NCBI GenBank assembly: GCA_022574295.1
Contig: JACZSJ010000004.1
Span: forward strand, 1-58,142
Direction of reading: 5' to 3'
DNA length: 58,142 nucleotides
Origin: Pseudomonadota bacterium
GTDB lineage: Bacteria; Pseudomonadota; Gammaproteobacteria; Eutrophobiales; Eutrophobiaceae
Made by a program: the position numbers and the translations under genes. Shown in pieces: positions 6,291-34,574 of the stretch. Every line of letters starts with the position of its first letter. The stretch's first letter is position 1. The notes beneath the pieces were generated by a model that saw only the letters and a program-made list of their open reading frames with translations, made no database searches and was not told the DNA's origin.

Positions 6291-6605
6291 CTATTGTATC
6301 ACGGCTTCTTTTGATTCAGTGTTTCCTTGACTGTCTTGCCAGCTAATACGAAGGGTGTCCCCCGGGTTTGCACCTGAAAAAGTAAATGACAAATACGGGT
6401 TTTTTGAAATCGCACGACTCCAGTCACATGTCATAATCACTTTGTCACCATGATGTATCGTCACGGTCGCTATAAAAAAAGCCGGGATGATGTCGCCGGT
6501 ATCGGGGTCACGGCTATAACCTGTATCCATGGGATGCTTGAGGATAGCCTGTACGGTTGTCAGGCCATCTTTCCTTGAGGTTCTTATTCTGATCCTGGAA
6601 GCCAT
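6291..6605 (-). CDS. soxZ: Thiosulfate oxidation carrier subunit SoxZ
   Basis: A 104-residue immunoglobulin-like protein starting MASRIRIRTSRKDG. It pairs with SoxY to form the periplasmic carrier on which the Sox system handles sulfur. The stretches HPMDTGYSRD and SKNPYLSFTFSGANPGD are characteristic. The ATG overlaps the soxY stop by one base (TAATG), so translation is probably coupled; an in-frame GTG three codons upstream is inside soxY and less likely. It lacks its own export signal, as expected for SoxZ, which leaves the cell with SoxY. No soxA, soxX, soxB or soxCD gene is in the window. Confidence 0.95.
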   Translation of the reverse strand: MASRIRIRTSRKDGLTTVQAILKHPMDTGYSRDPDTGDIIPAFFIATVTIHHGDKVIMTCDWSRAISKNPYLSFTFSGANPGDTLRISWQDSQGNTESKEAVIQ

Positions 6606-7072
6606 TAACCGCACCCTCCTTCTATTACTTCCACGAATTTTTTTGTGCTAAACAATTTGCCGTCTGATTTAACAATGACGGTAATTGTTGAAGGTTCTCC
6701 CACCTTAATTCTTGTCGCGACAAACCCCGCGCACTCAGGAGACATATTAAAATTCGCAATCAATGGGTTTGGATTTTTTTCAACCAGTATGGTGATCGAT
6801 TCAACATTTGGCAGATCGGTTTTAATCTTGACCGGCACAACAGCGCCATTTTCAACCAGGTCATGTACGCCGATAGTGATAGCATCGCTGGGCGTAACTT
6901 CAAGTCCAGGGAAAAATTCTGCTAGAGCATTTACTTCTGTTTCTGCTGAAAACGCATCAAGATTCCAGTTAGCAAAAGCAATCAACGGCTTCAGCAAGCC
7001 GCCTATACTGGCAAGGATGATAGTGGAACCTGAAAGCAGTCGTGAAATAAAATTTCTGCGTGTAATTTTCAT
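6605..7072 (-). CDS. soxY: Thiosulfate oxidation sulfur-carrier subunit SoxY
   Basis: A 155-residue protein with a twin-arginine signal (TRRNFISRLL with Arg5-Arg6, then a hydrophobic run to about residue 33) and the mobile C-terminal arm ending VIEGGCG, whose Cys154 carries the sulfur intermediate. The motif matches the SoxY GGCGG arm but is one glycine short. The central beta-sandwich region (VHDLVENGAVVPV, NPNPLIANFNMSP) is typical. It is followed by soxZ with a one-base overlap. The presence of a carrier without other sox genes nearby matches organisms such as Allochromatium, where soxYZ is separate from soxXA/B; some SoxYZ pairs also act with other sulfur pathways. Confidence 0.96.
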   Translation of the reverse strand: MKITRRNFISRLLSGSTIILASIGGLLKPLIAFANWNLDAFSAETEVNALAEFFPGLEVTPSDAITIGVHDLVENGAVVPVKIKTDLPNVESITILVEKNPNPLIANFNMSPECAGFVATRIKVGEPSTITVIVKSDGKLFSTKKFVEVIEGGCG

Positions 7073-10019: not shown

Positions 10020-10342
10020 TGACGTGCATGGATGCACTAATGTCGCGGGGATATGGATATCAAAGAGCGACCCGTTTCGTAATTCTCGTACCCGTCATAC
10101 CGGTTTTTAGCCGGTACCCGCCACAACACAATCAATACTCGTCATACCCGCGAAAGCGGGTAGCTAGTCAATAATAGATATTTCTATTCTCCGCCCGTCA
10201 TTCTCGCGAATGCGGGAATCCAGTAACAACTTGTCGTCATACCCGCGAAAGCGGGTATCCAGTCACACCTTCTCGTCATGCTGGCGAAAGCATTACTAAA
10301 AAATCAGTAAGGCTAGAGTCGATTGATATGTAAATTACAGTG
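10020..10342. repeat. Cluster of REP-like palindromic repeats
   Basis: This 323-bp gap between convergent pfp and mutM holds a run of related units of the form CGTCAT-ACCCGCGAAAGCGGG-TATCCAGT: at 10140-10170, 10196-10224, 10235-10263, plus a truncated and diverged copy at 10274-10292 and a related hairpin TACCGG...CCGGTA at 10098-10116. A separate palindrome GTGCATGGATGCAC is at 10024-10037. Units differ in length and spacing, and each is a palindrome, so this is a REP/dRS3-type extragenic repeat rather than a CRISPR. A stretch at 10165-10211 is closely similar to 46030-46076. The stem-loops may act as a bidirectional terminator. Confidence 0.75.
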
Positions 10343-29987: not shown

Positions 29988-30211
29988 AGGGGAACATTTC
30001 TGAGGATAGCAGTGGTCTAACCTTCAAAAAGCAAGTAACATCGTGTTGAAACCTCATAATAATACAATTTATTACCTGCCAGGGAAGTGACAAAGGCAGC
30101 AATTATTTTGAATGCCATTTTTACTGGTTTTAAGCATAAAATATATCATGTTGTATTCAAGAGCAGATATTTTAACATTGCAACTATTTTCCTACGTACA
30201 GGAGGATTTTG

Positions 30212-31249
30212 ATGGATATTGGTGAACTTCTCGCATTCGGTGCAAAAAACGGCTCATCCGACCTGCATTTATCCGCTGGTGTGCCCCCCATGATTCGTGT
30301 TGATGGTGACATGAGAAAAATCAATGTCCCCGTCCTTACTCACACGGAAGTCCACGACATGGTCTATGACATCATGAACGATAAACAGCGCAAGGATTTT
30401 GAAGAATTTTGGGAGTGTGATTTCTCTTTTGAAATTCCTGGTCTGGCACGATTTCGCGTCAATGCCTTTAATCAAAATCGTGGTGCTGGGGCCGTGTTCC
30501 GGACAATTCCGTCCGAGATCCTGTCGTTGGAAGATCTAAAGTGCCCAAAGATTTTCGAAGAGTTGGCTGATATCCCTCGTGGCGTGGTGCTGGTAACAGG
30601 GCCTACAGGATCTGGTAAATCCACTACCCTGGCTGCCATGGTGAACCACAAAAACGAAAATGAATATGGTCATATCCTTACGGTTGAAGATCCTATTGAA
30701 TTCGTACATGTCTCAAAGAAATGCCTCATCAACCAGCGTGAGGTCCATCGAGATACCCTGGGCTTTAATGAGGCCCTGCGCTCCGCTTTGCGTGAAGACC
30801 CGGATGTTATTCTCGTCGGTGAAATGCGTGATCTGGAAACTATCCGCCTGGCGCTGACTGCTGCTGAAACCGGTCACCTGGTATTTGGGACCTTGCATAC
30901 CAGTTCAGCTGCCAAGACCATTGATCGTATTATTGATGTGTTCCCGGCGGCAGAGAAAGATATGATACGTGCCATGTTGTCCGAGTCACTGAAGGCTGTT
31001 ATCGCACAGACCTTGCTTAAGAAAATTGGTGGTGGCCGTGTCGCTGCACATGAAATTATGGTTGGCACACCTGCTATTCGTAACCTGATTCGAGAGAACA
31101 AGATTGCACAGATGTATTCAGCAATACAGACCGGGCAACAATTTGGTATGAAAACGCTGGATCAGGATCTGGCCGAGTTGGTCAAAAAGAATGTGGTCAG
31201 TCGGCAAGAGGCCTTATCCAAATGCGCTAACAAAGACACTTTCCCGTAA
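30212..31249 (+). CDS. pilT: Type IV pilus retraction ATPase PilT
   Basis: A 345-residue secretion-superfamily ATPase that depolymerises type IV pili. Walker A is GPTGSGKST (130-138); the Asp box and Walker B follow (TVEDPIEFVH, DPDVILVGEMRD), and the AIRNLIRE motif near 285, diagnostic for PilT, is present. I start at the ATG at 30212, seven bases after a strong AGGAGG; the TTG one codon upstream is less likely. It heads a set of three homologous retraction-type ATPase genes. Confidence 0.97.
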   Translation: MDIGELLAFGAKNGSSDLHLSAGVPPMIRVDGDMRKINVPVLTHTEVHDMVYDIMNDKQRKDFEEFWECDFSFEIPGLARFRVNAFNQNRGAGAVFRTIPSEILSLEDLKCPKIFEELADIPRGVVLVTGPTGSGKSTTLAAMVNHKNENEYGHILTVEDPIEFVHVSKKCLINQREVHRDTLGFNEALRSALREDPDVILVGEMRDLETIRLALTAAETGHLVFGTLHTSSAAKTIDRIIDVFPAAEKDMIRAMLSESLKAVIAQTLLKKIGGGRVAAHEIMVGTPAIRNLIRENKIAQMYSAIQTGQQFGMKTLDQDLAELVKKNVVSRQEALSKCANKDTFP

Positions 31250-31288
31250 ATAGAGACTTGCATGACACATAATTAACAGGAGGAACTC

Positions 31289-32452
31289 GTGGAAAGAGAA
31301 CAAGCGATAAAATTCATGCGTGATCTTCTCAAACTGATGATTGAGAAGGAAGGTTCCGATTTGTTTATTACAGTAGGGTTTCCTCCTGCAATCAAGGTAC
31401 ACGGCAAGATTACACCCGTGTCGAAAACTGAGTTGACAGCAGACAACACCAAAGCCCTGGTATACGCTGTCATGAATGACAAGCAGTTAAAGGAGTACGA
31501 AGCGACAAAGGAATGTAATTTCGCTGTTAATCCTGTGGGTGTGGGTCGGTTTAGAGCAAATGCGTTTATTCAGCAGGGATATTGCGGTCTGGTGATGCGT
31601 ACCATTGAAACTGAAATACCCAATCTTGACAAACTCAAGCTACCAGAAATTTTGAAAGAGATTGTCATGACCAAACGCGGGTTGGTTATCATGGTGGGTG
31701 GAACAGGTTCAGGTAAGTCAACCTCGTTGGCGGCCATGATAGATTACAGAAACGAGAATTCATTCGGCCATATCATTACCATTGAAGATCCGATCGAATA
31801 TGTTCATCCCCACAAGAGTTGTATCATTATGCAGCGTGAAGTGGGGATGGATACGGATGACTGGGAAATCGCACTGAAAAACACTTTGCGACAGGCTCCT
31901 GATGTTATTTTGCTGGGTGAGATTCGTGATCGTATGACGATGGAGTTTGGTATCGCCTTTGCCGAAACGGGGCATTTGGCGATGGCCACATTGCATGCCA
32001 ACAGTGCTAACCAGGCACTGGATCGAATTATTAACTTTTTCCCGGAAGAACGCCGTCAACAATTATTAATGGATTTATCATTAAACTTGAAGGCTGTAAT
32101 TGCCCAGAGGCTTCTCAAGACGCGCGATGGCAAGGGTCGTGCTGCCGCGATTGAGATTATGTTGAACTCTCCACTCATTTCTGATCTGATATTAAAAGGT
32201 GAGGTTCACGAGATTAAGACTATTATGTCCAAGTCCAATGAATTGGGCATGAAGACTTTTGATCAGGCATTGTTCGATCTCCATCAAGCAGACCTGGTAA
32301 CACTGGAAGATGCACTGCGCAACGCAGATTCAATGAATGAATTACGTTTAAGAATCAAACTGGAAGGTAAGGATGCCAAAAATGTCGAAGAAGATGACCT
32401 GGATCATTTAAAGTTGCATGAAGAGGAAAAAGATTCAGGCGGAATGTATTAG
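31289..32452 (+). CDS. pilU: Type IV pilus accessory retraction ATPase PilU
   Basis: A 387-residue ATPase starting with GTG behind AGGAGGA. Walker A (GGTGSGKST, about 134-142), Asp box (TIEDPIEYVH) and Walker B (DVILLGEIRD) are intact. The PilT motif AIRNLIRE is replaced by SPLISDLILKG, and the C terminus has an acidic extension (KNVEEDDLDHLKLHEEEKDSGGMY), both typical of PilU. PilU boosts PilT-dependent retraction force in several species. It follows pilT by 39 bp. Confidence 0.96.
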   Translation: MEREQAIKFMRDLLKLMIEKEGSDLFITVGFPPAIKVHGKITPVSKTELTADNTKALVYAVMNDKQLKEYEATKECNFAVNPVGVGRFRANAFIQQGYCGLVMRTIETEIPNLDKLKLPEILKEIVMTKRGLVIMVGGTGSGKSTSLAAMIDYRNENSFGHIITIEDPIEYVHPHKSCIIMQREVGMDTDDWEIALKNTLRQAPDVILLGEIRDRMTMEFGIAFAETGHLAMATLHANSANQALDRIINFFPEERRQQLLMDLSLNLKAVIAQRLLKTRDGKGRAAAIEIMLNSPLISDLILKGEVHEIKTIMSKSNELGMKTFDQALFDLHQADLVTLEDALRNADSMNELRLRIKLEGKDAKNVEEDDLDHLKLHEEEKDSGGMY

Positions 32453-32518
32453 GTGGGGTGGCATAGGTAATTGTTGGTTATAGAAAATAATGTTTAGCTT
32501 CGGGGGTAGTCAATCAGT

Positions 32519-33577
32519 ATGGATATCACACCTTATCTTAAATTAATGGTTGAGAAGAATGCCTCGGATTTGTTTATTACTACAAACTCTGAAGTTAAGA
32601 TCAAACTGGAAGGCAAGATAACAGCCGTCGGCAAGACAATTCTGACAGGAGATATCTGCAAGGCAGCCGCCCTTAACATCATGAATGATGTTCAGACAAG
32701 TCATTTCGAAGAAACAATGGAATGTGACTTTGCGATTGCACTTGAAGATGGCTCAGCAAGATTTCGTGTCAATATTTTTCGTCAAAGGGGTCAAGTGGGA
32801 ATGGTGCTTCGACTTATTCCATCGGAAATTCCAACGATCGAACAACTGGGGCTACCCGCAATATTGCAGGAGATGATACTGCAGAAAAGGGGCTTGATCC
32901 TGATGGTCGGTGCAACTGGTTCAGGTAAATCAACAACACTCGCGGCGATGATTAATCATCGAAATAAAAACATGACAGGGCATATATTGTCGATTGAAGA
33001 CCCAGTCGAGTTTAGTCATCCTAATATCAAATCGATTATAAACCAACGTGAGGTCGGGGTTGATACGCTATCTTATCGAAATGCCCTGAAGGCCTGCTTG
33101 CGTGAAGCCCCCGATGTCATTTTGATTGGTGAAATTCGCGATCGTGAAACAATGGAAGCAGTGATGGAGTTATCTAATACAGGCCACCTGGCGCTGTCAA
33201 CACTACACGCTAATAATGCTAATCAGGCAATGGAACGGGTTATCAATCTGTTTCCTCATGATGCACATAAACAGTTGTATATGGATTTGTCTCTAAACTT
33301 ACGAGCAGTTATTTCACAGAGGCTTGTTACAGGCATTGATGGCAAGCGTTGCGCCGCAATTGAAATACTGGTGAATACGCCACATATTGCCGATCTGATC
33401 CTGAAGGGTGATTTAGATGCGATGAAAGAAGCAATGGAAGAAAGCGGACAGAAAGGAATGCAAACATTTGATAAAGCGCTTTTCGATCTATATAAGGAAG
33501 GTCGTATTGACCTTGAAGAAGCTTTGAACAATGCTGATTCGCGAACAAACCTCGAGGCCAAGATTAATTTCGGTTAA
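32519..33577 (+). CDS. Third PilT/PilU-family ATPase, PilU-like
   Basis: A 352-residue protein starting MDITPYLKLMVEKNASDLFIT, with Walker A (GATGSGKST, about 131-139), SIEDPVEFSH, DVILIGEIRD and STLHANNANQAMERVI all intact, so it should be an active ATPase. Its family motif is TPHIADLILKG, like PilU rather than PilT. The acidic PilU tail is absent. It follows pilU by 66 bp, and all three are probably one operon. Such paralogues exist in some species, but their role is unclear. No clear ribosome-binding site is visible immediately upstream of the ATG at 32519. Confidence 0.93.
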   Translation: MDITPYLKLMVEKNASDLFITTNSEVKIKLEGKITAVGKTILTGDICKAAALNIMNDVQTSHFEETMECDFAIALEDGSARFRVNIFRQRGQVGMVLRLIPSEIPTIEQLGLPAILQEMILQKRGLILMVGATGSGKSTTLAAMINHRNKNMTGHILSIEDPVEFSHPNIKSIINQREVGVDTLSYRNALKACLREAPDVILIGEIRDRETMEAVMELSNTGHLALSTLHANNANQAMERVINLFPHDAHKQLYMDLSLNLRAVISQRLVTGIDGKRCAAIEILVNTPHIADLILKGDLDAMKEAMEESGQKGMQTFDKALFDLYKEGRIDLEEALNNADSRTNLEAKINFG

Positions 33578-33657: not shown

Positions 33658-34135
33658 ATGATGGAGGACAAGTCCAAACCTTCAGATAATAATCATTTCC
33701 ATTTAGTTCATATTAAGGTTGCTTGTTAGCAGTTTTAAATTGCTCACCGGCAAAAATGTCCTGGCGTCCGGTTGTGATATTGATAATATTTCCCGAGAGA
33801 TATTTTTCGCACTATTTGCTGTTATGTCACATGGCCTGGAAGTTGATCCCGTCTTTAATTATGCTAACCAATGTGCATTGGATTTATTTGAAATGACATG
33901 GGAAGATTTTATTAAACTACCTTCACGATTATCAGCAGAGGCAGATTCATAAGAAGAACGCGACCGAATTTTGAAAAAGATTACAGATCAAGGTTATGTT
34001 GATGATTATACTTGTGTAAGAATTTCAAATCAGGGCAAGCGGTTTCAGATTAAAAATGCAACTATCTGGAATGTGATTGATCAAGATCGTCATTATGGTC
34101 AGGCAGCACTCATCAGGGAATGGGCATATCTATAA
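33658..34135 (+). pseudogene. MEKHLA-domain protein, broken by a frameshift and a stop codon
   Basis: The stretch from ATG at 33658 to TAA at 34133 encodes a MEKHLA domain (a PAS-like domain seen in bacteria and plant HD-ZIP III proteins): FFALFAVMSHGLEVDPVFNYANQCALDLFEM, then EERDRILKKITDQGYVDDYTCVRISNQGKRFQIKNATIWNVI. Two lesions are visible. The start reads HNHFHLVHIK in one frame, and a single extra base near 33717 moves the rest to another frame (LLVSSFKLLTG). A TAA at 33950-33952 then interrupts the continuing frame. Removing these gives an uninterrupted product of about 158 residues. It precedes the PilZ gene on the same strand. Confidence 0.85.
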
Positions 34136-34166: not shown

Positions 34167-34574
34167 ATGCGAAATTTCATCAGGCACCCTGCCGATATAC
34201 CGATAAAAATCATTAAAAATGAAAGTGGAGATTGCTATCGTCAACCATTGCAGGATATTAGTATTGGCGGTCTTCGCTGCCGGTTTAATGAACCCCTGGC
34301 AATAGGGGACGAGATAAAAATAATTATCGATCTGGTTGAACCGATATTGGAAATCTCTGGCAGAGTTATCTGGTGCCGGGCTGTTGATGCAGCATACGAA
34401 CTTGGTATTGAGTATCGGGGAGAAGAGGACGTCTACAGATTACGCATGGTTGAGCAGATCTGTCACATTGAGCATTACCGAAAAGAGACACAAATCAGGG
34501 AAGGCAGAAATATCAGTAGCGAACAGGCGGCCAGGGAGTGGATTGTCAAATTCGCTGGCGGATTCCCGAAGTAA
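34167..34574 (+). CDS. PilZ domain protein
   Basis: A 135-residue protein with the c-di-GMP-binding signature: RNFIRHP (RxxxR, residues 2-6) followed by the D-x-S-x-x-G motif in DISIGGL (about 30-36). After the beta barrel the C-terminal 40 residues are helical and charged. It probably senses c-di-GMP. Its position next to three pilus retraction ATPases suggests a role in pilus-based motility, but this is inference; it is in the same direction as the pseudogene before it and has only weak ribosome-binding sequence. Confidence 0.9.
   Translation: MRNFIRHPADIPIKIIKNESGDCYRQPLQDISIGGLRCRFNEPLAIGDEIKIIIDLVEPILEISGRVIWCRAVDAAYELGIEYRGEEDVYRLRMVEQICHIEHYRKETQIREGRNISSEQAAREWIVKFAGGFPK

Follow-up and report, generated by a model that had tools for sequence, protein, structure and literature searches.

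A review (PMC4496561) describes the MEKHLA domain as PAS-like and as most homologous to sensor kinases of bacteria, FixL being an example. In an excerpt of PMC10425158, a MEKHLA-domain gene is counted among the unique genes of a bacterial plasmid, with no tested function reported there. The MEKHLA-domain literature that we have found concerned mostly plants, and a narrow literature search retrieved no tested function for stand-alone bacterial MEKHLA proteins.

We have compared these systems with a locus in a 58,142-nucleotide stretch of DNA, which was analysed as a whole and is called the window here. Like the bacterial stand-alone members of the MEKHLA family (PF08670), both pieces of the window gene and the intact protein of a sister species matched the family model; the window copy differed from them by two interruptions and by the change of an otherwise invariant glycine. 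The sister protein also gave a weak match to PAS domains (PAS_9, PF13426; E 8e-4, below the curated cut-off) and, unlike PAS proteins with effectors, it carried no fused effector domain. When six MEKHLA proteins were scanned, two listed PAS_9 (E up to 10) and four listed MEKHLA alone. The structure predicted for the intact sister protein, together with two planctomycete relatives, was poor (mean pLDDT 47.7), and a sequence search of solved structures gave no match at E up to 1. Judged from its sequence, the intact MEKHLA protein would probably be a small PAS-like module or regulator, either sensory (ligand-sensing) or protein-binding.

An earlier note on this DNA had described an interrupted MEKHLA gene next to pil and PilZ genes, with the domain readable across a frame change near 33717 and a nonsense TAA at 33950. 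The positions of the open reading frames and the PF08670 matches bore out the gene and its limits (Table 1). The ATG frame ran into a stop at codon 24, and the TAA was found between the two MEKHLA pieces, all three being in one frame. The domain could indeed be read on either side of this TAA, with the pieces scoring 82.6 and 69.9 bits (curated cut-off 23.7), far beyond chance, and jointly spanning most of the domain model. Read through the stop, the locus scored 165.5 bits with one internal TAA. Hence, the single unbroken reading frame expected of a functional MEKHLA protein was absent from the window copy, which was also the sole MEKHLA match in its own genome (175 contigs). We consider it probable that a one-base frame change, together with a nonsense codon, has recently put this gene out of action, in a case of ordinary gene decay.

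Table 1. Features of the interrupted MEKHLA gene and its pil/PilZ surroundings (positions are those of the window)
Feature	Position	Strand	Evidence
PilT/PilU-family ATPase (called PilT)	30209..31249	+	TIGR01420, 503.4 bits
PilT/PilU-family ATPase (called PilU1)	31289..32452	+	TIGR01420, 451.9 bits
PilT/PilU-family ATPase (called PilU2), directly upstream of MEKHLA	32519..33577	+	TIGR01420, 424.6 bits
MEKHLA-domain pseudogene, full extent	33658..34135	+	ATG at 33658, final TAA at 34133-34135
N-terminal part, ATG frame, upstream of the frame change	33658..33712	+	98% nucleotide identity to the G002 gene over 54 nt
Frame change, +1 base relative to the same-genus relative, exact base ambiguous	33713..33717	+	Alignment with G002
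MEKHLA domain, in-frame piece 1	33719..33949	+	PF08670 6-81, E 3.2e-23
Premature in-frame TAA	33950..33952	+	Sense codon there in G002
MEKHLA domain, in-frame piece 2	33953..34132	+	PF08670 84-142, E 2.8e-19
PilZ-domain gene, intact	34167..34574	+	PF07238, E 2.9e-12; 90% identity to G002

A promoter and terminator scan gave counts near the shuffled means, and the Rfam and tRNA searches returned three tRNAs, none of them in or near the MEKHLA gene. Elsewhere in the window, adjoining SoxY (PF13501, E 7.2e-28) and SoxZ (PF08770, E 7.7e-33) genes were found on the minus strand at 6294-7072, which suggests sulphur oxidation in the organism. A short intergenic stretch at 10020-10342, whose translations, judged by eye, share look-alike strings (e.g. 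SYPRKRVSS, RHSRECGNP), is perhaps a dispersed repeat.

A PF08670 match (E <= 0.001) was obtained in 12 of the 58 genomes searched, own included. One of these, the same-genus metagenome-assembled genome (MAG) G002, provided the intact orthologue beside PilZ that the earlier note had proposed to look for in relatives. Its 157-aa MEKHLA protein covers positions 3-143 of the 143 in PF08670 (E 2.1e-52), and its gene likewise has pilU2 on one side and pilZ on the other. The G002 contig and SMWN01000092.1 (Gammaproteobacteria bacterium isolate CR02bin7) proved identical, and the gene order on it was that of the window: PilT (truncated where the contig ends), PilU1, PilU2, MEKHLA, PilZ and PyrK, with pyrimidine genes following PilZ. 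Alignment of the two loci over ~6 kb placed an additional window base near 33713, close enough to the position first proposed since the placement is ambiguous, and showed a G002 sense codon opposite the TAA. The remaining gaps were intergenic, save 15 bases at the MEKHLA 3' end, around which the two copies aligned poorly; the N-terminal part was compared by nucleotide identity only. Thus, the window gene carries disabling lesions and a relative retains an intact orthologue, as is the case for a pseudogene. Because the sister species keeps this gene unbroken at the corresponding location, the window gene is most likely recently dead. The third same-genus genome (G001) was unusable as evidence of loss, its contigs ending on both sides of the interval. 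Both same-genus MEKHLA genes (33658-34135 and L014:2791-3261) had one residue fewer before the GQAA motif, a residue present in all other MEKHLA rows readable there.

A MEKHLA match was obtained in 14 of the 53 genomes of the family sample, the window's own genome counted, and among the 13 matches better than 1e-40 the window copy alone contained a stop; the match of one additional family member (G013) was cut by unread bases. Of the 369 genomes in the class sample, again with the own genome counted, 33 had a match at E <= 0.001, and the stop was again confined to the window copy among the 20 matches better than 1e-40.

We have examined the divergence between the window and G002 copies for the age of the loss. 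The dN/dS values were 0.22 and 0.18 for the two MEKHLA pieces vs 0.10-0.17 for five neighbours, the dN/dS and dS of the pieces being rough because they are short (~85 synonymous sites). About 22 of the 45 changes in the pieces were nonsynonymous, compared with a share of 0.79 expected without constraint (p 9e-6), and this nonsynonymous share was weakly above that of the neighbours (Fisher p 0.07). The dS of piece 2 (33953-34126) was 0.57, compared with 0.22 for piece 1 and 0.22-0.36 for the five neighbours, with few sites available. A MEKHLA protein tree of 29 rows supported the same-genus pair at 100/100 but did not place it, the fork above it having 23/16, so that the tree speaks neither for nor against acquisition of the gene by transfer. 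The end branch of the window protein was no longer than that of G002 (0.081 vs 0.095), which fits a very recent loss and also no loss at all. Conserved sites were counted in 26 other MEKHLA proteins, excluding one row with unread residues (L010). The window copy has a C where 26 of 26 have glycine, and an L at a position occupied by P in 20 of the 26. At the 22 residues differing between the window and G002, the commoner residue was found in G002 at 11 and in the window at 9, with two ties; this split points to little general decay beyond the two lesions. Taken together, such figures are consistent with a loss that is recent relative to the split of the window species and G002. The claim of an inactivation, and of a recent one, was supported by the unbroken G002 orthologue at the corresponding location, the constraint-like divergence and a protein branch that does not exceed the G002 branch in length.

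The same divergence figures would also be expected if both lesions were sequencing or assembly errors in a MAG, or came from a mixed-strain consensus, and the gene were intact in the cell. The largely constraint-like divergence, the unlengthened protein branch and the fragmentation of the genome into 175 contigs are all compatible with this explanation, which we nevertheless regard as unlikely. Two lesions of different types would have to fall within one 478-bp gene, whereas PilU1, PilU2, PilZ, PyrK and PyrC aligned with their G002 counterparts free of gaps and stops. Moreover, the frame change was located outside any long single-base run, and the window copy carries the additional substitutions at conserved MEKHLA sites.

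Continued synthesis of a truncated or two-part product, such as the 77 aa that run from the TTG at 33719 up to the TAA, or of one rescued through recoding at both lesions, is very improbable. That 77-aa open frame with its TTG is present, and both pieces showed constraint-like substitution ratios, but either piece matches just about half of one domain, the sister species encodes a single unbroken protein, and the window copy has lost the glycine kept in all the others. Programmed frameshifting or stop read-through was rejected: the sister gene, whose protein is unbroken, has neither feature, so the frame change and the TAA are not shared recoding signals.

Recent inactivation thus being the preferred reading, pilU2 and pilZ would have flanked a stand-alone PAS-like MEKHLA gene in the common ancestor of the window species and G002. 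In the window species, this gene would have been inactivated lately through the one-base frame change and the TAA, with the surrounding pil and pilZ genes left intact. Translation from the MEKHLA ATG would stop after 23 residues, and no full MEKHLA domain would therefore be made. We infer that the MEKHLA product is truly lost in living cells.

PilZ receptors of c-di-GMP carry motifs of the RxxxR and DxSxxG type. The PilZ gene adjacent to the pseudogene was intact, as had been claimed, and its translation combined the PilZ domain with RNFIR and DISIGG; a role as c-di-GMP receptor is predicted. The genome also encodes the remaining c-di-GMP machinery, with 4 PilZ and 14 GGDEF matches; a single protein accounts for two of the GGDEF matches. 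Matches to the third PilT/PilU-family ATPase of the tandem (30209-33577), at 68-83% identity and with one being partial, were obtained in 38 of the 50 family genomes that lie outside the genus; the triple PilT/PilU tandem is therefore not special to the window genome.

The pseudogene is surrounded by the same gene order as that of the PilT-PilU-PilU-PilZ cluster of the family. The PilU2 search gave a match at E <= 1e-100 in 41 of the 53 family genomes, a threshold that admits the paralogue PilU1 (e.g. in G001). We have compared the best 30 PilU2 loci of the family (>= 77% identity) and set aside one with 96 bases downstream, each of the remaining 29 having at least 1,500 bases downstream. MEKHLA followed pilU2 at two of these 29 loci, those of the window and G002 only, whereas pilZ was present downstream of pilU2 without MEKHLA at 16; both were absent at 11, as judged by tblastn at 1e-4, which divergent copies could escape. 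The reverse comparison, made from the MEKHLA side, covered 12 family genomes outside the genus (~1.5 kb on each flank, and 12 kb in all for six), and none of their MEKHLA loci had a match to the window's pil genes nearby. Likewise, the flanks of 17 MEKHLA loci of the class sample gave no match to these genes. The counts at the pilU2 and MEKHLA loci thus indicate that the pilU2-MEKHLA-pilZ order is, among the loci examined, a genus-level arrangement.

The suggestion that a PAS-like sensor worked with PilZ consequently found no support beyond co-location in one genus, and none of the papers searched named both MEKHLA and PilZ. A conserved partnership as a family-wide rule was rejected on the 16 of 29 loci with pilZ and no MEKHLA and on the 12 MEKHLA loci without a pil match in the stretches compared. 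We regard a MEKHLA-PilZ partnership as a guess, and a weak one, confined to one genus. It is a tentative and rather unlikely idea that the genus recruited a stand-alone PAS-like MEKHLA protein into its pilus-retraction/PilZ cluster, where it would have fed a signal into twitching motility, and that the window species has just lost this input while keeping the c-di-GMP receptor.

Beyond annotation the finding has little consequence: it records that an uncultured gammaproteobacterium has recently lost one gene. At the loci examined, the vicinity of MEKHLA and PilZ is restricted to one genus and does not amount to a conserved link. Were the recruitment in this genus functional, the sister species with the intact and the broken gene would offer a natural comparison for the role of stand-alone MEKHLA proteins.
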